The translations under genes were made by a program, and so were the position numbers. DNA of 64,000 bases from Sphingomicrobium sediminis (GTDB taxonomy: Bacteria > Pseudomonadota > Alphaproteobacteria > Sphingomonadales > Sphingomonadaceae): assembly GCF_023805295.1 (NCBI RefSeq), contig NZ_JAMSHT010000001.1, positions 806,001 to 870,000 of the forward strand. The letters run 5' to 3'. This document shows, in pieces, positions 50,559 to 60,834 of this stretch (the stretch's first letter is position 1; the number at the start of each line of letters is the position of its first letter). The notes under the pieces were generated by a model, which saw nothing but the letters and a program-made list of their open reading frames with translations, was not told the DNA's origin and did not search any database.

Positions 50559-51041
50559 TTAGCGATAGGCTGCATCGGCGGCAAGGTTGGCGGCAATCGC
50601 CTGTTCCCACTTGTCGCCATTCTCGAGAAGCTTGGCCTTGTCGTAGAGCAGTTCCTCGCGCGTTTCGGTCGCAAATTCGAGGTTGGGCCCTTCGACGATG
50701 GCATCGACCGGGCAGGCCTCCTGGCACAGCCCGCAATAGATGCACTTCACCATGTCGATGTCGTAGCGCGTCGTGCGGCGCGAGCCGTCATCGCGCGGTT
50801 CGGCCTCGATGGTGATGGCCTGCGCCGGGCAGATTGCCTCGCACAGCTTGCACGCAATGCAGCGCTCTTCCCCGTTTGGATAGCGACGCAGCGCATGCTC
50901 ACCGCGAAAGCGCGGGCTCATCGGCGTCTTCTCGTACGGATAGTTGATGGTCGCCTTGGGCTTGAAGAAATATTTGAGGGTCAGCAGGTGCGCCCCCAAA
51001 AATTCCCACAGCGAAAAGGCTTTCAGCGCACGCGCAATCAT
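50559..51041 (-). CDS. nuoI: NADH-quinone oxidoreductase subunit I
   Basis: The 160-residue ferredoxin-like subunit that carries clusters N6a and N6b. Two 4Fe-4S motifs are seen: [13 protein letters not shown] and [16 protein letters not shown]. In this window it is preceded not by nuoH directly but by a 152-residue ORF whose stop overlaps its ATG. Confidence 0.97.
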
Positions 51042-51496
51042 TCTGAGTCACCTTCTTGGGCAAAGGTCCAATCGGACTTGCAATTTGCCTTGGCTACCAG
51101 TCGCTCCGGCAAGGATGCATCATGCGGCGTCGCCTGCGTGAGGACACCGACGCTGCGCGCATTGGGCAAGAGGACGAAATCGAGCCGCATGGTGGGCTCA
51201 TCGTCGAAACGGAAGCGCAGGCTGTAGCGCCGATGCGTTTCGCTTGCCGAAACAAGCCACATGTAGCGACGGCCGGCGAGCGGCGATTCCTGCAAGGTCG
51301 ACACGTCGAGCGGCAGGCCGAAATCGGGCGAATGTTCGGCCGGGAATGTCGGCGCGATACCTTCGACACGAACGCTCTGCCCGTCGATCACCATCGAGCA
51401 TTGAAAGTCGACGCCCGGAACAGGCGGCGCGCCAGGATTGGCCCGCCCTACCATGGCTGGCTGCATCGCGAGTGACAAAGCGATCGCGCTGATCAC
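51038..51496 (-). CDS. Exported hypothetical protein between nuoH and nuoI
   Basis: A 152-residue protein I do not recognise. A short hydrophobic start ([19 protein letters not shown]) looks like a signal peptide. The mature part has two cysteines ([10 protein letters not shown] and [10 protein letters not shown]) far apart and several beta-strand-like segments ([31 protein letters not shown]). It is embedded in the operon: its start overlaps the nuoH stop and its stop overlaps the nuoI start, both as ATGA. An accessory or assembly role for complex I is possible but unproven. Confidence 0.75.
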
Positions 51497-52548
51497 AGCA
51501 TGCCTCCCTCATAGCGGGTCAGCATGAGCCAGCCCGAGACGAGAACGACGAAGAAAATCGAGAGCGGCAGGAAGATCTTCCACCCGAGCCGCATCAGCTG
51601 GTCGTAGCGATAGCGCGGCACGGTCGCCTTCACCCACCCGAAAATGAAGAAGAAGATCCCGATCTTGAGGAAGAGCCAGAGGATGCCCGGGATCGCATAG
51701 AGCGGCGCCCAGTCGATCGGCGGCAGGAACCCGCCCCAGAAGAGCAGCGCATTCAGCGCGCACATCAAAAGCACGTTGGCATATTCGCCGAGCCAGAAGA
51801 GCGCGAAGCTCATCGAGCTATATTCCGTCTGGTGACCCGCGACGAGTTCGCTTTCCGCTTCAACGAGGTCGAACGGCGTACGGAACGTCTCGGCCATCGA
51901 GCTGATGAGGAAGACCACCGCCATCGGGAACAGGATCGGGCTGAAGCCGAAGCCGTTCAGGAAGCCGAGCACGAGACCCTGCTGCGCCAGCACGATCTCG
52001 GTGAGGTTGAAGGTGCCGGCCCACAGCACGACGCCGATGATGACAAAGCCGAGGCTGACCTCGTAGCTCACCATCTGCGCGGCGGCGCGAAGCGCGGAGA
52101 AGAAGGGATATTTGGAGTTGGACGCCCAGCCCGCAATGATCACGCCGTAGACGCCGATCGACCCGATCGCGAGAATGTAGAGCAGGCCGATATTGAGATC
52201 GGCGAGCACGACGCCGACATCGAACGGCACCACCGCCCAGACCAACAGCGCGATCGTGAAAGTGATGATCGGCGCGATGAGGAAGAGCGCCTTGTTTGCG
52301 CTCGATGGGATAATGGTTTCCTTGAGGAAGACCTTGATGCCGTCGGCGAAGCTTTGCAGCAGCCCGAACGGACCGACCACGTTAGGCCCCTTGCGCAGCG
52401 CCATCGCCGCCCAGAGCTTGCGCTCGGCGTAGATGACCATCGCCACCGCGAACATCAGCGGGAAAGCGATGAGCAGGATGCCCGACAGGTGCGCGAAAAA
52501 CCACGCCCAGCCATCGCTCATGCCCAGATTCTGGAAGAAAGCGGTCAT
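51493..52548 (-). CDS. nuoH: NADH-quinone oxidoreductase subunit H
   Basis: The 351-residue membrane subunit at the quinone site. Signature loops are present: [40 protein letters not shown] with YEV following, and [23 protein letters not shown] overlap with nuoG upstream. Confidence 0.97.
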
Positions 52549-54560
52549 TCCGCGGCCTCCGCAATGTCTTCGCCATGGACCAGTTCGGCCGAGCAGCGGC
52601 GCATGGTCGGGCTGTGGCGGCAGATCGGGTTGGTGAGGTAATAATCGGCGATCGGATAGCTGATTGCCCCCTCGCCCTTCGGTTCGATCTTGGTCGGGCT
52701 GAAGGGCAGGTCAACGATCACCCCGTCATCCACGCCCAGCATCGGCACGTCCTTGACCATCGCAGCGCGAAGCTGACCAAAATTGTCAAATTTCAACGGC
52801 TTGCCGAGAATATCGGACACAGCGCGGAAGATCGACCAGTCCTCGCGGGCATCGCCCGGGGCGAAGACGGCCTTCTCGCTGCGCTGCACGCGGCCCTCGA
52901 TATTGACGTAGGTGCCGTGCTTTTCCGCAGGCGCCGCGCCCGGAAGGACGAGGTCCGCCTGCGCTGCGCCCTTGTCGCCATGATGGCCAACATAGACCTT
53001 GAAGGCTTTTGGGAAGGCATCGGCGGAAACTTCGTCGGCGCCCAGCAGGAGGACCAGCTTGGGCTTGGCGTCAATGATGTCGTTGAGGCCGCCCGGCTGC
53101 GCATAGCCGAGCATCAGCCCCGCCATCCGGCTCGCCGCAGTGTGGAGGACGTTATAGCCCTTCCAGCCATCACGCATGACATTGAGGCTGTGCGCTGCGG
53201 CATGGGCATCGCCCTGCCCGCCAGCGGCCAGCACGGCCGGACCGGTGATGAAGACAGGGCGTTCGGCCTTCTCGAACACCTCGACCACGGCCTTGGGCAG
53301 GTTGGTCAGCGTCTTGAGGTCCTCGCCCATCCACTCGACCTTGTAGCCGAGATCGGTTTCGGGCCCGACGGCGTAAATCTTGGCGCCGCGGCGGAAGGCC
53401 TTGCGGACACGCGTGTTCACCAGCGGCGCTTCCCAGCGCAGGTTCGTGCCAGCCAGGAAAATGGCGTCGGCATTCTCGATCTCCGCAATCGGGGTCGAGA
53501 AACGCACCGTGGCGAGATCCGACACGTCATAGTCCATGCCGGTCTGACGACCTTCGAACAGCTTGCCGCGCTGCTGCTTCAGAAGTGCGTGGGCGGCATA
53601 CATGGTCTCGGCGTCGACAAGATCGCCGGAAATCGCCGCGACCTTGGTCTTCGCTTCTGAAAGCTTGCCGGCGAAGAGATGCAGCGCCTCGCCCCAATCG
53701 GCGGCGCGCAGCTTGCCATTTTCGCGAATCCACGGACGGTCGAGGCGACCGCGCACCAGCGCATCGACATGGTGGCGCGCCTTGTCCGAGATCCATTCCT
53801 CATTCACGTCATCGTTGATGCGCGGCAGGATGCGCATGACCTGGCGGCCGCGCACATCCATGCGGATGTTCGAACCGACCGCGTCCATGACGTCGATGCC
53901 CGGCACCTTTTTCAATTCCCATGGACGCGCTTCGAAGCTGTAGGGCTTCGACAGCAGGGCGCCAACGGGGCAGAGATCGTGGAGGTTACCCGAAAGCTCG
54001 GACTGCAGCGCGCTCTCGAGATAGGTCGTGATCTCGCTATCCTCGCCGCGGAAATACATGCCAAGCTCGGCCTTGCCGGCCACTTCTTCGGCAAAGCGCA
54101 CGCAGCGGGTGCACTGGATGCAACGGGTCATCGCCGTCTTGACGATGGGGCCCATATACTTGTCTTCGACCGCACGCTTGTTTTCATCGAAACGGGTGTA
54201 GCCGCGGCCATAGGCCATGGCCTCGTCCTGCAGGTCGCATTCGCCGCCCTGGTCGCAGATCGGGCAATCCAGCGGGTGGTTGATGAGGAGAAACTCCATC
54301 ACCCCTTCGCGCGCCTTCTTGACCATCGGCGTGTCGGTGCGAATTTCCTGGCCCTCGGCAGCCGGCAGCGCACAGCTGGCCTGCGGCTTAGGCGGACCCG
54401 GCTTCACTTCGACGAGACACATGCGGCAATTGCCGGCAATGCTCAGCCGCTCATGATAGCAGAAACGGGGGATTTCCTTGCCTGCCAGCTCGCAGGCTTG
54501 CAGGACGGTGGCACCGTCCGGGACTTCCAGTTCAACGCCGTCGACTTTGACTGTTGGCAT
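52545..54560 (-). CDS. nuoG: NADH-quinone oxidoreductase subunit G
   Basis: The 671-residue iron-sulfur subunit of the hydrophilic arm. It has the N-terminal 2Fe-2S ligands ([16 protein letters not shown] and SCALPAAEG), a His-Cys 4Fe-4S region ([13 protein letters not shown]), the [13 protein letters not shown] ligands and a large molybdopterin-oxidoreductase-like domain without cofactor. The ATG at 54560 starts the conserved [13 protein letters not shown]; another ATG at 54578 would add six residues. Unusually, nuoF is not next to it: five secreted genes and a small ORF intervene. Confidence 0.96.
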
Positions 54561-54583
54561 GCTCGTTCCGCTTTGCATTAACG

Positions 54584-54690: not shown

Positions 54691-55524
54691 CTATTCGTCG
54701 GCCGACGCGGCCAGCGGACCGAGCTCATTCCACTTGAACAGCGCCACGGCGAGCGAGGTACGCTGGTAGATGGGCTCCATCTTCGGCCGTTCCGACAAGC
54801 CGCATTCCGGCGTGTTGGCATAGAGCAGTTCGAGCGCGGCGCGCTCTTCCTTACTGTCCGGCGAGGTGAAGAGAACGTCATAGGCAAGGCCCGGCGAATA
54901 GACGACGGCGCATCGTGCGACCGTGTTGATATCGCTCTCGGGCTCGGGGCCGAAGACGAAGTCGGCGGCGCGCGCCGTATCCACCCCCTCAGCGCGCAGC
55001 GGGGGCTGCGGCAAGGCATTGACGACCAGCATTTCGGCGAGCGCGGCATTGACCATATAGACGGGCGCAGCGCGCTGGGCGCTGTTGACGCACTGGGCGT
55101 GACGGCCCTTGAATGCCTTCATGAGGGCTTCGTAATCGGGCTCGGCACTGACATCGACATAGGAAACCGCATCCTCGCCCACGCTGGCAAGCGCGCACTG
55201 CGCCATATAGCCTGCATGCCCGTAGCGGTCGCGAACGCTATTCTTGTTCTGCTCGCGCAGCAGGTAGAGCAGCTGCCAGTCGATCGTGCCGTCCTCGTCA
55301 TTCTGCTGGACGGCATAGAATTCGTCGGGACGCTCGGGATCGCGGCTACCGCGATTGCCGGGGTCGGAAGGCCGCTCGCCGCTGATGACGATCGGCGCCT
55401 CTTCCTCGTCGCCCCCGGCAGGCGGGGCTTCCTGCGCCATGGCGCTTCCCGTTCCCGCGCTGACCGAAAGGATGGCTGCAAGGGCGGCGATACCGGCACG
55501 GCCGGCGGAAACGGAAATCGTCAT
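54691..55524 (-). CDS. Secreted four-Cys paralog A (nuo-embedded family)
   Basis: A 277-residue exported protein, unrecognised. The signal peptide ends near GSAMA before QEAPP. An acidic and Pro-rich segment (residues 32-75) leads to the shared core with cysteines at 110, 145, 205 and 241. Shared marks are MAQCALA, HAQCVNS, ARCAVVYSPG, TPECGLSERP and a closing YQRTSLAVALFKW. Spacing is C-X34-C and C-X35-C for the two outer pairs. AAGGAG stands nine bases before the ATG at 55524. Only 14 bases separate it from paralog B. Nothing suggests an enzyme; a periplasmic binding or structural role is possible. Confidence 0.8.
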   Translation of the reverse strand: MTISVSAGRAGIAALAAILSVSAGTGSAMAQEAPPAGGDEEEAPIVISGERPSDPGNRGSRDPERPDEFYAVQQNDEDGTIDWQLLYLLREQNKNSVRDRYGHAGYMAQCALASVGEDAVSYVDVSAEPDYEALMKAFKGRHAQCVNSAQRAAPVYMVNAALAEMLVVNALPQPPLRAEGVDTARAADFVFGPEPESDINTVARCAVVYSPGLAYDVLFTSPDSKEERAALELLYANTPECGLSERPKMEPIYQRTSLAVALFKWNELGPLAASADE

Positions 55525-55538
55525 GTCGAAATTACTCC

Positions 55539-56312
55539 TTAGGTCAGCCGTACCCACTGTGACAGGCTGTGGCTGAGCGCAATACGCTGATAAAGCGTCG
55601 ACGCATCGGGGCTTTCCGACAAACCGCATTGCGGCATCGACGCATAGAGGGCGTCGAGGCGAGCGGCCTCTTCCTCATTGCTCTCGGCCAGATCGCTGTC
55701 GAGGTACGTCCGCACCGCGCGCGCATTGTTGGCAACCAGGCAACGCGACACCATTTCGATGCTCGCCTCTTCCTCGTCACCCGCGACATAATCGCGCGCA
55801 AGGTCGGGATCGACCATTGCGGTACGGCGCTCGAGGCGCACCGCCTTGTGCGCCATCGCGGCGTGGAGGAAATCGGCCGGGACACTATAGGCCATGGTGT
55901 CGACACAGACGCCGTGATTCTTGCGGATCTCGCGGACCATCTTTTCATAGTCACCCGTGTCGCCGATCAGGACATATTCCATCATCCCCGCACCCTTGGA
56001 GGCGGCAACGCAATCGGCGACATTGATGGCCTGGCGATAAAGCTGCGCCGAGGTGCGATACTCTTCGCCATTGAAGCGCGTGCTGAGCCAGGCAATTTCG
56101 AGATAGCGATTCTGCACCCGACCACGCTCGCCCGAAAAGGCGTTGGGCGCCGGGGGCACGCGAACCTGAAGCGACGGATTGGGCGTGAACAGGCTGCCGC
56201 TATTGCGGGTCGGTGTATTGGTCTGCCCGTTGGAGTTGGACTGCGCCATGGCAGGCGTTGCCAGCCCCAGCGAAACGACGGCCGCAGTCGCGGCGAGCGC
56301 AAGTTTCTTCAT
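55539..56312 (-). CDS. Secreted four-Cys paralog B (nuo-embedded family)
   Basis: A 257-residue exported protein. The signal peptide (MKKLALAATAAVVSLGLATP) cuts near AMA before QSNSN. An Asn/Thr/Pro-rich stretch precedes the core with cysteines at 101, 136, 191 and 229: VADCVAA, HGVCVDT, SRCLVANN and MPQCGLSESP, then YQRIALSHSLSQW. Its first pair is C-X34-C like paralog A; its second is C-X37-C, two residues longer than in the others, and it lacks the Pro of the xSPx motif after Cys3. A GAAC-N7-GAAC element lies about 130 bases upstream. Confidence 0.8.
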   Translation of the reverse strand: MKKLALAATAAVVSLGLATPAMAQSNSNGQTNTPTRNSGSLFTPNPSLQVRVPPAPNAFSGERGRVQNRYLEIAWLSTRFNGEEYRTSAQLYRQAINVADCVAASKGAGMMEYVLIGDTGDYEKMVREIRKNHGVCVDTMAYSVPADFLHAAMAHKAVRLERRTAMVDPDLARDYVAGDEEEASIEMVSRCLVANNARAVRTYLDSDLAESNEEEAARLDALYASMPQCGLSESPDASTLYQRIALSHSLSQWVRLT

Positions 56313-56438
56313 TACTATACCCCTTTACTTGGCCATTGCGTCATGCCCGAGCAGGCAAAGACGGTCGGCTCCGTCCCGAACGCGCAACAACATGGCGAGA
56401 TCGATGATCTTGCTAACATAGATGAAGACAATGCGACT

Positions 56439-56466
56439 GAACATTTTCTGAACGGAGGTTCAGAAA
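56439..56466 (-). promoter_or_regulatory. Possible LexA-type box plus perfect hairpin upstream of paralog B
   Basis: GAAC at 56439-56442 and GAAC at 56450-56453 are separated by seven bases, which on the minus strand reads GTTC-N7-GTTC, the same form as at lexA. The second half-site also lies in a perfect nine-bp inverted repeat (56445-56453 with 56458-56466, loop GGAG). About two such eight-base matches are expected by chance in a window this size, so it is only suggestive. Confidence 0.45.
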
Positions 56467-56493
56467 GCGCCAACTTCCGCCATTCCGGACGAT

Positions 56494-57378
56494 TTACTCG
56501 TCTTCGACTTCGACCGTCCCGTAGCGGTTCGTGCCCCAGTAATAGAGCCCCCCAGCCACCGCAACGCGTTGGAAAATGGGGTCAATATCTTCAGGACTTT
56601 CCTCGAGCCCGCACGATTGGGCGGAGCGATAAAGGCTGTTCAGCGCCTGCAATTCTGCATCCGTCCCTGGCTCGCTTTCGAGTACGCCCAGCGACCTTGC
56701 TGGCGACAGGATCGCGACACAGCGCCCGATAGCGTCGACATCGACCTCGCCATCGCCCTCGATAAAGGCCTGGGCTTGCGCGACTGGAACGCTGCCAAGC
56801 CCGAAGCGCATCGTGTCCATGCCGTTGAGGACCAGCAATTCCATCAACGCGGCATTGAGGACTTCGCCCGGAACGGTCGCAGATTCGTCGGTGACGCAGC
56901 TGCGATGCCTGCGGGCCAGGCCGTTGGCGAGGCGTTCGAACTTCTCGTCCTCGAGCATTGCCCCACCGACCAGTTGATCGGTCTCCTCGCCTGCCCTTCG
57001 ATGAAGGCACTGTGCCACACGCTGCGCCTCCTGCCACATCTTGATGCGGTTTGCGGGCGTGCCCATCGCGGCTTCCATCTGCCGCAGGTAGAATTCGCGT
57101 TCGAACGTCTCGGCATTGGGACGGCGATCCGAATAGCCCGGACAATTATCGCCCGTACAAGGCGGTTCGAAGCCACCGCCCGGATTGCCAATCGGGCGCT
57201 CGGGCGGAGGCGGCGGTGTCGGAGTGGGGGTTGGCGTGGGCGTGGGCTGGTTGAAGGCGGATGCAGACTGTCGCTCGACTGCCAATTCGACATCCTTGCC
57301 GTCGGCATAAGCAAATGCCGACGTGGCCATGGTGGCCGACACCATTCCGAAAAGCGCAGCTGCCGTAAACTCCTTCAT
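56494..57378 (-). CDS. Secreted four-Cys paralog C (nuo-embedded family)
   Basis: A 294-residue exported protein, the longest of the five. After a signal peptide (to about AFA, residue 23) comes a Pro-Thr repeat linker (residues 45-60) and an additional cysteine pair CTGDNC (74 and 79) that the others lack. The core cysteines are at 124, 161, 220 and 256: VAQCLHR, RSCVTDES, GRCVAILSPA, QSCGLEESP, followed by FQRVAVAGGLYYW. Spacing C-X36-C and C-X35-C groups it with paralogs D and E. Another shared mark is VAQAQAFIEG before Cys3. Confidence 0.8.
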   Translation of the reverse strand: MKEFTAAALFGMVSATMATSAFAYADGKDVELAVERQSASAFNQPTPTPTPTPTPPPPPERPIGNPGGGFEPPCTGDNCPGYSDRRPNAETFEREFYLRQMEAAMGTPANRIKMWQEAQRVAQCLHRRAGEETDQLVGGAMLEDEKFERLANGLARRHRSCVTDESATVPGEVLNAALMELLVLNGMDTMRFGLGSVPVAQAQAFIEGDGEVDVDAIGRCVAILSPARSLGVLESEPGTDAELQALNSLYRSAQSCGLEESPEDIDPIFQRVAVAGGLYYWGTNRYGTVEVEDE

Positions 57379-57506
57379 CTCATTCCCCTCTTCTTGTCAG
57401 GCGACCATAGCATGGTCCGCGATGGAGCGCTTGGTCAGGTGAACGCCAAGTGAATATGCACGCCCTTTCCGCCGGAAACTGCCATTTCCGAAGCAAATAG
57501 AAGAAA

Positions 57507-57536
57507 GCGGCGACGCTCCCGATGGAACGCCGCCGC
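57507..57536 (-). terminator. Rho-independent terminator between paralogs D and C
   Basis: A 13-bp stem (two G-U pairs) at 57507-57519 and 57524-57536 with a four-base loop, followed on the minus strand by TTTCTTCT. It is 32 bases after the paralog D stop and would cut the nuo transcript here unless read through. Confidence 0.78.
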
Positions 57537-57568
57537 CTCGATCTTCAATGCAGGTTGGTGAGCGGGAC

Positions 57569-58270
57569 CTAGCTGTCCTGCATCATCCGCCACGCATAGA
57601 GCCCTTCGACCATCGCACGGCGCTGGACCATGTCTTCGATCTCGGGACGTTCGCTGACGCCGCACTGGGGCGCTGACTGATAAGCAGCCTGCAGCGCATC
57701 CTTTTCGGCATCGCTGTTCGACTCGGTGTCCATCACGCGAACGATGCTGGCGGGCGCCAGGACCGCAATGCAGCGACCGACCTTGTCGATCGGCAGGTCA
57801 TCGTCACCGCCGACGATGAAGGCCTGCGCGGCCGCCATGTCGGTGACCGGCTTGGGCGTGACCATTTCCTCGCGCTTGGCAAGGACGATGGTTTCGACGA
57901 GCGCGAGACCGACATAATCGATCGGAAGGCCGCTCGATTCCTCGGTCATGCACTGGCGATACTTGCGGCTGAGTGCGCCGTTGAGCGCGTCATAATCCTC
58001 GTCATCGGTCAGCTCGCCGCCAACCAGATCCATGGCTTCGTCGCCAGCCTGGCGCTGGACGCAACTGGCAACCATCTTCGAACGCTCGAAGACATTGGCC
58101 GATTCACCCGACTCGCCCATCGTCTTGCGGGCTTCGAATTCCTTCTCGAAATATTGCGCATTGGGGCGCAGCGAATTGCCGTCAGGCTGGGCCTGCGCGT
58201 GAGCGGCGGTCGCGCCGAACGTCATGGCAGCGCCCACCATCGCGGTGCGCAGCAAAATGGTCTTGATCAT
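57569..58270 (-). CDS. Secreted four-Cys paralog D (nuo-embedded family)
   Basis: A 233-residue exported protein. The signal peptide runs from MIKTILLRTAMVGAAMTFGA to about AHA before QAQPD. Core cysteines are at 70, 107, 167 and 203: VASCVQRQAG, RQCMTEES, GRCIAVLAPA, PQCGVSERP, then VQRRAMVEGLYAW. Spacing is C-X36-C and C-X35-C. It has almost no linker before the core, so it approximates the minimal unit. The ATG at 58270 has GAGGGGAG upstream; an upstream in-frame start would read through the promoter gap. A terminator follows. Confidence 0.8.
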   Translation of the reverse strand: MIKTILLRTAMVGAAMTFGATAAHAQAQPDGNSLRPNAQYFEKEFEARKTMGESGESANVFERSKMVASCVQRQAGDEAMDLVGGELTDDEDYDALNGALSRKYRQCMTEESSGLPIDYVGLALVETIVLAKREEMVTPKPVTDMAAAQAFIVGGDDDLPIDKVGRCIAVLAPASIVRVMDTESNSDAEKDALQAAYQSAPQCGVSERPEIEDMVQRRAMVEGLYAWRMMQDS

Positions 58271-58393
58271 CGGGTGTCTCCCCTCGTCCCTCGGTAAACT
58301 CAACAATGCGTCATGCTGGTATAGCATAAGCTGGGCGCCATCGGCTTTCGACGGGCAAAACTGTCAGGCCGATGAACGACCGACGAATGTCCG

Positions 58394-59071
58394 CTAGCGG
58401 TTGCTCCAGAGCCACAGTCCGACGGCCAGCGCCGATCGCTGGTAGATTTCGGGAATGGCTTCGGGGCGTTCACGCAGCCCGCATTCTGGCGTCGCAGCAT
58501 AGAGCGCGTCGAGCGCATCTTCCTCGGCATCCGACCCCGCCTCGGTCATCAGCACCTGAATGACGAAGCCCGGCGAGAAGACCGCAGCGCAGCGCCCGAC
58601 GTTCTCCATGCCCGACTGGCCGCGCTGGGGCTGGTAGAAGCTTTGCGCCTGCGCTGCGTTCACATTGGCCGCGCGCGGCACCCAGTCACGATTTTGCGAC
58701 AACAGCAAACGCTCGGCCAGCGCGCCATTGACGAAATAGGGATGCAGACCCCGCGCTCGCGGAGTCTTGCACTGCGCATAGGTCACGGTGACGCCGCGCA
58801 TCAGCCGCGCATATTCGGCATCGTTGGTGCCCGGACCGCCGATCAGGCCGCCGGCACTGTTGCCGCCCGCCCGCACCAGGCAGTCCGCCAGCGTACCCGC
58901 CGCACGAACCATCCCTGCCGCACCGGCAGGGTCATCAAGCAGGTTTGACAGACTGAGATCGGACGCAAAATAGCTGCGGTCTATGTCCGCTTCACCGGCA
59001 GGCTGGGCAGCCGAAGGCGCCGCCAGCATCGCTGCCGTCACCAGACCAAGACCCATATTACGCAAACGCAT
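58394..59071 (-). CDS. Secreted four-Cys paralog E (nuo-embedded family)
   Basis: A 225-residue exported protein, the shortest and first-transcribed of the five. The signal peptide ends near PSAAQ/PAGEA. Core cysteines are at 64, 101, 161 and 197: LADCLVRAGG, AQCKTPRA, GRCAAVFSPG, PECGLRERP, then YQRSALAVGLWLW close to the C-terminus. Spacing is C-X36-C and C-X35-C. It shares VNAAQAQSFY with the AQAQAF of paralog C and AAAQAF of D. Confidence 0.8.
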   Translation of the reverse strand: MRLRNMGLGLVTAAMLAAPSAAQPAGEADIDRSYFASDLSLSNLLDDPAGAAGMVRAAGTLADCLVRAGGNSAGGLIGGPGTNDAEYARLMRGVTVTYAQCKTPRARGLHPYFVNGALAERLLLSQNRDWVPRAANVNAAQAQSFYQPQRGQSGMENVGRCAAVFSPGFVIQVLMTEAGSDAEEDALDALYAATPECGLRERPEAIPEIYQRSALAVGLWLWSNR

Positions 59072-59144: not shown

Positions 59145-59384
59145 TTATTCGGCTGTGGGCAACTCGGCCAGCGCGTCGAACAGGTTCTTCATGCTGAATT
59201 CCGCGACTTCGACCGGGCAGAGCGCGAAAGCTGCCATCAGCGACGCTTCGAATGTGTCCTGGCTATCCGCATCTCGGATCGCGGTCGCAGCGTCCATGTC
59301 CTTCTCGGCCACGCACGCAACGAATGCGGCCTCCGGCGTGACGTCCTGGAAAGCAAGCGACAGCGCGATCAGCGAAGCAATCAC
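59145..59384 (-). CDS. Small exported protein coupled to nuoF, unrecognised
   Basis: A 79-residue ORF. Its ATG overlaps the nuoF stop (ATGA), which argues that it is translated. The N-terminus [17 protein letters not shown] is hydrophobic and signal-like, and resembles the start of the 152-residue ORF between nuoH and nuoI. There are two cysteines ([10 protein letters not shown] and [11 protein letters not shown]) 31 residues apart. The rest is acidic and helical. It is not clearly a member of the four-Cys family. Confidence 0.6.
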
Positions 59385-60688
59385 TCGGCAGCGGCCCGCT
59401 CTTCATCGCCATGTTCGGCGATACGGCGCTCCAGCTCGGGGCGGAAGTGACGGATGAGGCCCTGGATGGGCCATGCCGCTGCATCGCCAAGCGCGCAGAT
59501 GGTATGGCCCTCGACTTGCTTGGTGACGTCGTAGAGACGGTCGATCGCGCCGATATCGGCATCGCCCTCAACCAGCTTCTCCATGGTGCGCCACATCCAG
59601 CCCGTGCCTTCGCGGCACGGCGTGCACTGGCCGCAGCTTTCATGCTTGTAGAAGTACGAAATCCGGCTGATCGCCTTCACGATATCGGTCGACTTGTCCA
59701 TGACGATGACCGCCGCGGTACCAAGGCCCGAGCCCTGCTCCTTGAGGCCGTCGAAATCCATCGGGCAGTCCATGATGTCCTTGGCCGGGACCAGCGGGAC
59801 GGACGAGCCGCCCGGGATCACCGCCAAGAGGTTGTCCCAACCGCCGGTGATGCCGCCGCAATGCTTTTCAATGAGCTCGCGGAACGGGATGCTCATCGCT
59901 TCCTCGACCACGCAGGGCTTTTCGACATGGCCCGAAATCTGGAACAGCTTGGTGCCGTGGTTGTTCTCGCGACCGAAGCTCTTGAACCAGGCAGCGCCGC
60001 GACGAAGGATCGTCGGGACGACCGCGATCGATTCCACATTGTTCACGGTCGTCGGGCAGCCATAGAGGCCCGCACCCGCCGGGAAAGGCGGCTTGAGGCG
60101 CGGCTGACCCTTCTTGCCCTCGAGACTTTCGAGCATCGCGGTCTCTTCGCCGCAAATGTAAGCCCCTGCCCCGCGGTGCAGGAACAGGTCGAAATCATAG
60201 CCCGAGCCGCAGGCATTCTTGCCGATCAGGCCCGCTTCATAGGCTTCGTCGATGGCGCGCTGCATGGCAGCGGCCTCGGCGATATATTCGCCGCGAATAT
60301 AGATGTAGGCCGCCCGCGCGCGCATCGCGAAGCTGCTGATCAGCGCGCCTTCGACCAGCTTGTGCGGGTCGTGCCGGATGATCTCGCGGTCCTTGCATGA
60401 TCCGGGCTCGGATTCGTCGGCATTGATCACGAGGAAGTTGGGACGGCCGGGCGTCGGCTGCTTGGGCATGAAGCCCCACTTCACGCCAGTCGGAAAGCCC
60501 GCACCACCGCGGCCGCGCAGGCCTGAATCCTTAACCTCTTCGATGATCGCATCGGGATCGCGCTTCAGGAGCGCCTTGGTATCGTCCCAGTCACCACGCG
60601 CCTGCGCTTCCTTCAGCCCCGGGCTCTGGAAGCCATAGACGTTGGTGAAGATGCGATCCTTGTCGGTGATGCTAGTGATGCCGTTCAT
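59381..60688 (-). CDS. nuoF: NADH-quinone oxidoreductase subunit F
   Basis: The 435-residue NADH-binding subunit with FMN and cluster N3. Seen are [17 protein letters not shown] (NADH/FMN loop), [20 protein letters not shown] and the 4Fe-4S ligands [15 protein letters not shown] plus a later [10 protein letters not shown]. The ATG at 60688 overlaps the stop of the 48-residue ORF (TGATG); a GTG directly before it is an alternative. Confidence 0.97.
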
Positions 60689-60834
60689 CACTTCTTCTCC
60701 AGCAATTTCGTCGCGCCGAGATACACGCCGGCAGCGAGTGCGACCCCGATGAGGAGGCCGAACAGATTTTTGAGGATCGAGAAGGCCAGCAGGATGATGA
60801 TGATCCCGGCGATGATCTTGACGACGTTCTGCAT
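60688..60834 (-). CDS. 48-residue membrane ORF between nuoE and nuoF
   Basis: A very short ORF that fits exactly between nuoE and nuoF: its ATG overlaps the nuoE stop (TAATG) and its stop overlaps the nuoF ATG (TGATG). The product starts [20 protein letters not shown], continues through a Gly/Ala/Leu-rich helix (residues 26-40) and ends TKLLEKK, so it looks like a one- or two-helix membrane peptide with a positive tail. The overlaps on both sides make chance unlikely. Function unknown; it could be a complex I accessory peptide or serve only to couple translation. Confidence 0.7.

Follow-up and report, generated by a model that had tools for sequence, protein, structure and literature searches.

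Extra genes in respiratory operons are already known: unidentified reading frames are found inside the nqo/nuo operons of Paracoccus and Rhodobacter. In mitochondria, the complex I subunits NDUFA8 and NDUFS5, which belong to the intermembrane-space side, are of the twin CX9C type. As for the bacterial enzyme, the accessible parts of PMC11522691 list NDUFS4, NDUFS6, NDUFA12 and a methyltransferase as extra subunits of Paracoccus denitrificans complex I (see also PMC8115037), and state that, NDUFA8 and NDUFS5 being absent, extended beta-hairpins stabilise the periplasmic face of bacterial complex I (PMC11522691). The accessible parts of PMC4013037 contain nothing on extra subunits or on the periplasmic face. 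Here we analyse a stretch of 64,000 nucleotides from Sphingomicrobium sediminis (contig NZ_JAMSHT010000001.1, positions 806,001 to 870,000; hereafter the window), in which five tandem genes, A to E, encode exported-type proteins with four conserved cysteines and separate nuoF from nuoG. An earlier note, made from the window's letters alone, had pointed out these five genes; they were confirmed as open reading frames (ORFs) at 54691-59071 on the minus strand. We show by sequence comparison that the family to which they belong has its home in the complex I operon of Sphingomonadaceae, at the junction of nuoF and nuoG.

Distribution of the family

Among 147 evenly drawn genomes of the order, all of which were matched by the nuoF query, 46 matched the family. 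All 46 are Sphingomonadaceae, the family of the window's organism, and they fall into 20 of 55 genera. We placed 68 match rows from outside the window's genome relative to nuoF and nuoG, some rows being pieces of one gene. The great majority (57 rows, from 40 genomes other than the window's) lay between nuoF and nuoG, three (G123, G185) between nuoG and nuoH, and one (G168, locus L234) beside nuoF, with nuoG on another contig; the nuo operon of G168 may be split, with the four-cysteine gene left by nuoF. Altogether, 61 of the 68 rows, in 20 genera, were in or beside the nuo operon, and the scatter without any nuo link that the earlier note had named as the contrary outcome was not seen. The family is encoded together with complex I across related genomes, though many relatives lack it, and its tie to the operon can be described as strong but erratic.

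The spacing of the two flanking genes gave the same picture. In 83 Sphingomonadaceae genomes nuoF and nuoG were on one contig; the gap measured at least 300 bp in 47 of them, 41 of which (window included) had a member there, and none of the 36 genomes with a gap below 300 bp had a member at the junction. Memberless gaps of at least 300 bp occurred in G177, G123, G185, G126, G174 and G157, of which G123 and G185 carry their members at nuoG-nuoH. Outside Sphingomonadaceae, three of 54 placeable order genomes had a gap of at least 300 bp, none with a member, and in 50 of the 54 the gap was below 100 bp. The two genes are indeed normally adjacent, as the earlier note had assumed, and the placement of such genes inside a respiratory operon remains as odd as it had seemed. 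In G123 and G185, of genus g23, the frames of the members overlap their neighbours by 1-4 nt. Beside these relocated genes, the NuoH ORFs (L232 in G123, L233 in G185) are 487 aa long and have a long C-terminal extension, the match to the window's NuoH stopping at residue 345.

In a class-wide sample of 241 genomes, four matched: three Sphingomonadaceae, the window's own genome included, and G268, with a weak partial match (E 1.2e-4). Within the window's genus, 35 of 61 genomes matched, and 50 of 69 rows, five of them the window's, were assigned by hand to the nuo site from nuoG positions. Absences in this first survey are not certain, because only part of the candidates was scored in many genomes (at most 20 per genome for the order, 12 for the class and 48 for the genus). 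Named strains with members at the junction include Sphingobium ummariense RL-3, Sphingobium sp. SYK-6 (L147), Novosphingobium sp. Rr 2-17 and MD-1, Aurantiacibacter rhizosphaerae, Sphingomonas deserti and Blastomonas sp. CACIA14H2.

Cysteine framework and duplicated module

Iterated profiles were run over the ORFs of the window, 50 same-genus nuo loci, the off-locus region L101, and L014. This yielded 48 ORFs: five from the window, two from L101, 40 from nuo loci and one from L014. Of the 40, 39 are located between nuoF and nuoG; the remaining one (L100) is just ahead of nuoG, on a contig not reaching nuoF; some were flagged off-site merely through an over-long mechanical start inside nuoF. 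The L014 ORF (genome G029), drawn in by the first loose profile, has no cysteines and was removed. The genus alignment (A2) omits it together with the L064 fragment and the fused L065. The alignment used below (A3, 75 rows) adds 30 of 39 ORFs from other genera; it omits L103, L104 and L106 (repeats of genus genomes), L115, L119, L124:1492 and L125 (uncertain starts), and L118:2105 and L105:2873.

The four cysteines (C1-C4) and one arginine are invariant in all 75 aligned members, a count biased upwards because intact ORFs were chosen; one member of G185, outside the alignment, has three cysteines. C3 and C4 are separated by 35 residues in 74 of the 75, the exception being window gene D (37), whereas C1-C2 varies between 32 and 42 and C2-C3 between 47 and 97 residues. 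The two halves of the protein are related: module 1 aligned with module 2 at an hhalign probability of 98.75 (E 1.5e-16), and 30 column-shuffled controls reached at most 3.0. Since the halves are homologous, the unit of the family is evidently a C-x~35-C module of about 80 residues, present in two copies in each protein. A 436-aa protein of G014 (L065) has eight cysteines and four module matches.

Genes A to E show all features of the family, i.e. the four cysteines and the arginine, C3-x35-C4, the duplicated module and an export signal, except for the C3-x37-C4 of D. The core spacings reported by the earlier note were reproduced (A and B 36/59/35, C 36/58/35, D 34/54/37, E 34/59/35), and its RC, CG, QR and closing W are invariant, with the four cysteines, in the five-protein alignment. 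It had also taken the proteins to be exported; an N-terminal hydrophobic stretch is present in all five and in 70 of the 75 members, by a crude rule and not a dedicated signal-peptide program. We infer a periplasmic location and disulfide bonds. The hydrophobic periodicity of the modules is compatible with amphipathic helices, so they may be disulfide-pinned helical hairpins. No CXXC motif occurs in any of the 75 members, and no residue besides the cysteines and the arginine is invariant, which fits binding better than catalysis.

As for known families, the 75 members gave no match in Pfam, PHROGs or PADLOC at E<=0.01, and a profile search found no PDB chain at E<=10. Four NCBIfam families were matched at E<=0.01, each by a single member and with no common theme (E 4.6e-5 to 0.0033); the window proteins gave weak single matches to Pfam and NCBIfam, all below the cut-offs. 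Searches of 5.8 billion proteins, each scoring the 8000 candidates that shared most words, returned 4, 10 and 31 matches, some of them the window's own and all unnamed or 'hypothetical'. A literature search over titles and abstract openings, with few subscription journals, found no description of the family. The earlier note had not recognised it either, and with no library giving a domain common to the members or a known domain of set function, its account is not contradicted. We conclude that the family is real, and new to the libraries and literature searched.

Turnover, expansion and divergence

Sequence change, duplication and loss are all far more rapid in the family than in the enzyme genes that flank it. 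On a tree of 48 genomes of the genus (FastTree; NuoD/F/G/H), 24 of them with members, presence at the junction requires at least 16 changes; the tree omits L070 and L092, and the count is also 16 with both included. The member tree contains subfamilies that span genera as well as separate local expansions, such as window genes A-E with three G056 genes (support 100/98), four G064 genes (100/98) and the G007 copies. Gene E pairs with its nearest relative, L058:8340-9218 of G056 (100/100). The tandem expansions had separate origins. The two off-locus copies of G007 nest among its nuo-linked copies, which makes the nuo site their probable origin. An exchange of members between genera by horizontal transfer was considered and not adopted, cross-genus pairs showing no clear excess over nuoG similarity.

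In three cross-genome member pairs dN/dS was 0.38-0.53, values that are rough because dS is high (0.95-1.86, near saturation). For gene E and its G056 partner it was about 0.53, whereas nuoF and nuoG of these two genomes gave about 0.2. Set against these two genes, members are relaxed but constrained; dN/dS was below 1 in all six member pairs compared.

Two explanations bear directly on these patterns. According to the first, the genes are decaying duplicates, i.e. neutral expansions whose proteins are idle in most genomes. High turnover fits this, as do the broken copies in L064 (the second copy, in two ORFs) and in L237 (also two ORFs). It is nevertheless very improbable, given that C1-C4 are kept throughout the alignment (with the bias mentioned above), that dN/dS is below 1 and that the five window genes are intact. 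According to the second, members are diversifying binding or immunity-like proteins in an arms race with phages, competitor toxins or periplasm-reaching inhibitors, for which the nuo operon supplies expression only. Tandem paralogs, rapid divergence around a fixed cysteine framework, frequent gain and loss, and the cross-genome dN/dS of 0.38-0.53 would agree with it. Against it stand the dN/dS below 1 in each of the six pairs and the lack of PADLOC matches among the 75 members. Moreover, one member searched by tblastn against 50,697 phage and 72,556 plasmid records had no match, and inspection of the surroundings of off-locus copies (by eye, no domain scan) revealed neither a toxin partner nor a mobile gene. 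We regard such an arms race as improbable.

Accessory proteins or passengers

The earlier note had offered two possibilities, periplasmic partners of complex I or cargo that uses a highly expressed locus, and the data do not decide between them. We lean slightly towards the first, and propose, tentatively and at somewhat less than even chance, that members are dispensable periplasmic accessory proteins of the respiratory membrane, co-produced with complex I and in putative contact with it. Every time complex I is produced, they would be produced with it and exported; in the periplasm they would serve as protein-binding accessory factors for that face of the respiratory membrane rather than as core subunits in fixed stoichiometry. 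In some conditions they might help complex I or its neighbours to fold, protect them or tune them, and a paralog expansion such as that in the window might provide a set of binders of differing specificity.

A partnership is favoured because the genes are found in the same operon in 20 genera, their frames overlap those of their neighbours, and one genus has its members at nuoG-nuoH. As for the overlaps, we counted aligned members only, some loci holding further members or small ORFs, and omitted off-locus L101 and L116. At the nuoF end, with the nearest in-frame start, 36 of 46 loci show a 4-nt overlap between the nuoF stop and the first member; 34 of 46 do so when the start is chosen for a signal peptide. 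At the nuoG end, 24 of 47 loci have a last member that overlaps the start of nuoG, and neighbouring members overlap each other in 7 of 25 cases.

Alternatively, members might be passengers, that is, exported proteins whose work, in the periplasm or at the surface, has nothing to do with respiration. They would exploit the strong, steady expression and the permissive junctions of the nuo operon, and descent and recombination between conserved flanks, not a functional link, would hold them in place. We rate this as only slightly less probable than the accessory role. A number of observations weigh against an accessory role, and several of them would be expected of passengers. Seven of the 68 order rows lie elsewhere (G182 has four; G158, G073 and G093 have one each), as do 19 of the 69 genus rows, unplaceable ones included, and the off-locus copies showed no neighbour in common (by eye, no domain scan). 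In the genus, the junction holds the family in 25 of 50 placed genomes, window counted, and half are without it. Presence is as scattered on the tree as shuffled labels, which gave a mean of 16.2 changes, with 283 of 500 shuffles as low as the observed 16. Divergence is rapid, reciprocal best members being 28-71% identical (31-71% against 69-93% for nuoG where nuoG was available). In the window, gene A starts 309 bp past the nuoF stop, gene E ends about 130 bp ahead of nuoG, and coupling is limited to the 4-nt overlap with the nuoF stop of a small reading frame, orf0 (Table 1), which the earlier note does not mention. NuoF and NuoG are themselves cytoplasmic, and for the helices of the putative hairpins the evidence is the amphipathic periodicity.

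If members bound the membrane arm, genomes with and without them should differ at the contact. We therefore aligned NuoL, NuoM, NuoN and NuoK from 46, 47, 45 and 38 genomes, window included, and compared every column with presence at the junction. No column went beyond permutation (28, 83, 24 and 40 of 100 permutations reached the best column; the power is low), a further point against contact, and the lengths of the four proteins do not differ between genomes with and without the family. This counts against an obligate structural subunit; for loose or fast-changing contacts the power is small.

The junction also has other tenants, and the variable occupancy of nuo junctions is the main support for the view that members are passengers. 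In relatives, nuoF-nuoG occupants unrelated to the family include a lipoprotein-like ORF (L068), small transmembrane (TM) ORFs, and ORFs without an export signal in L087, L141 and L145 (all by eye). Other nuo junctions of the genus vary too: nuoD-nuoE and nuoH-nuoI hold small membrane or exported ORFs, often with a 4-nt overlap. Farther afield, Brevundimonas has lipoprotein-like ORFs at nuoF-nuoG (L175, L195; by eye, no domain search), Rhizobiales loci (L188, L205, L216, L218, L219) share a cysteine-free ORF that carries a DLKxIxGxGPKLE motif near its C-terminal end, and an alphaproteobacterial MAG (L210) has an occupant specific to its lineage. None of these Rhizobiales, Brevundimonas and L210 ORFs matched the family or module profile at E<=0.01. 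Other alphaproteobacteria, too, have a dock at nuoF-nuoG, with other genes. Like the four-cysteine family, these are lineage-specific occupants of the junction, but the Rhizobiales ORFs have no cysteines and those of L175, L195 and L210 have three instead of four.

What distinguishes the four-cysteine family from the other occupants is its persistence at one junction. Passengers would be expected to turn up in further strongly expressed operons as well, but of the 68 order rows 61 are in or beside nuo; the share is lower within the genus (50 of 69). In addition, a single family occupies the junction in 41 of the 47 Sphingomonadaceae genomes with the wider gap, and the g23 genes moved one junction on and still stayed inside the operon.

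The window locus and further small ORFs

The features between nuoF and nuoG, which are 4.8 kb apart in the window, are listed in Table 1. The source genome (2.33 Mb, four contigs) contains five family copies only, all at this site (search to E<=1).

Table 1. Features of the nuoF-nuoG region of the window
Feature	Position	Strand	Description	Basis
nuoF	59381-60691	minus	upstream neighbour	ORF
orf0	59145-59384	minus	79 aa, hydrophobic N-terminus, GTG start, one C-x31-C	sequence, distance
gene A	58394-59071	minus	225 aa, exported-type, two Cys-pair modules	ORF, alignment, module profile
gene B	57569-58270	minus	233 aa (252 aa from upstream ATG at 58327), four-Cys family	ORF, alignment
hairpin	57504-57539	minus	terminator-like, between B and C, 16 pairs counted, then T-rich tail	
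gene C	56494-57378	minus	294 aa, four-Cys family, Pro/Thr-rich linker at the N-terminus, two additional Cys ahead of the core	
gene D	55539-56312	minus	257 aa, four-Cys family, only one of 75 with C3-C4 spacing 37	
gene E	54691-55524	minus	277 aa (312 aa from upstream ATG at 55629), four-Cys family	
nuoG	52545-54578	minus	downstream neighbour, conserved start at about residue 8 of ORF	

The spacings are -4 (nuoF-orf0), 73 (orf0-A), 123 (A-B), 190 (B-C), 181 (C-D), 14 (D-E) and about 130 bp (E-nuoG). With these longer spacers, orf0 alone overlapping nuoF, and a strong hairpin between B and C, the last three genes may have their own control; terminator-like sites in the region (7) are not clearly above shuffles (mean 4.6, sd 2.4). 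As regards a foreign origin, genes A-E resemble the operon in GC content (0.62-0.66), and their GC3 is 0.70-0.79 as against 0.78-0.88 in the nuo genes. We considered orf0 as a half-size, one-module member; it was not accepted, as its score against the module profile (6.1 bits) was reached by 18 of 500 shuffles.

Further small ORFs were observed at nuo junctions. A 152-aa ORF of the window (51038-51496, minus strand) has a hydrophobic N-terminus and overlaps the nuoH and nuoI ends by 4 bp; it matched no Pfam or NCBIfam family above the cut-off. Some genus relatives have other ORFs, with 2-5 cysteines, between nuoH and nuoI. At nuoD-nuoE, genus loci (e.g. L051, L055, L066, L096) hold variable small TM or exported ORFs, which start 4 nt ahead of the nuoD end in 14 of the 19 listed rows. 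At nuoF-nuoG, an ORF of 44-50 aa with a single TM segment, a G(P/S)R(V/I)T motif and a charged tail was found in L072, L073, L076, L079 and L095; it stands alone at the junction or behind a four-cysteine gene, as in L077 and L078.

Comparison with known systems

An exported family that keeps to one intra-operon junction in about 20 genera, yet has been gained and lost many times and has expanded in tandem repeatedly, amounts to a natural experiment on whether a place in an operon implies a shared function. If members touch complex I, they would represent a periplasmic accessory layer of the bacterial enzyme that is not described in the accessible parts of PMC11522691 and PMC8115037. If they do not, the family would be a warning against reading function from a conserved operon place. 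The question can be tested with the members in named strains, for example Sphingobium sp. SYK-6.

The extra ORFs of Paracoccus and Rhodobacter resemble the four-cysteine genes in lying between core nuo genes. The present genes differ in forming one exported family with a duplicated module, tandem-expanded at one junction across Sphingomonadaceae.

On the mitochondrial side, the four-cysteine proteins would share with NDUFA8 and NDUFS5 the side of the membrane, small size, cysteine pairs and possibly helical hairpins. It is conceivable, if rather unlikely, that they are a convergent bacterial counterpart of the intermembrane-space side of mitochondrial complex I, in which exported disulfide-pinned helical hairpins would dock on the periplasmic face of the sphingomonad membrane arm and be exchanged by paralog switching, accessory subunits turning over around a fixed core. 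The likeness has limits: the cysteines are spaced by 32-42 and 35-37 residues as against nine in twin CX9C (CHCH) proteins, so that two CX9C motifs are not found; the N-termini are hydrophobic and resemble signal peptides; and no PDB chain was related at E<=10.

The supernumerary subunits of Paracoccus, as described in the accessible parts of PMC11522691, are likewise lineage-specific extras tied to complex I, but no exported four-cysteine subunit or periplasmic one is named among them there. Compared with these subunits, the four-cysteine family is dispensable and fast-evolving, and its binding to complex I is putative.

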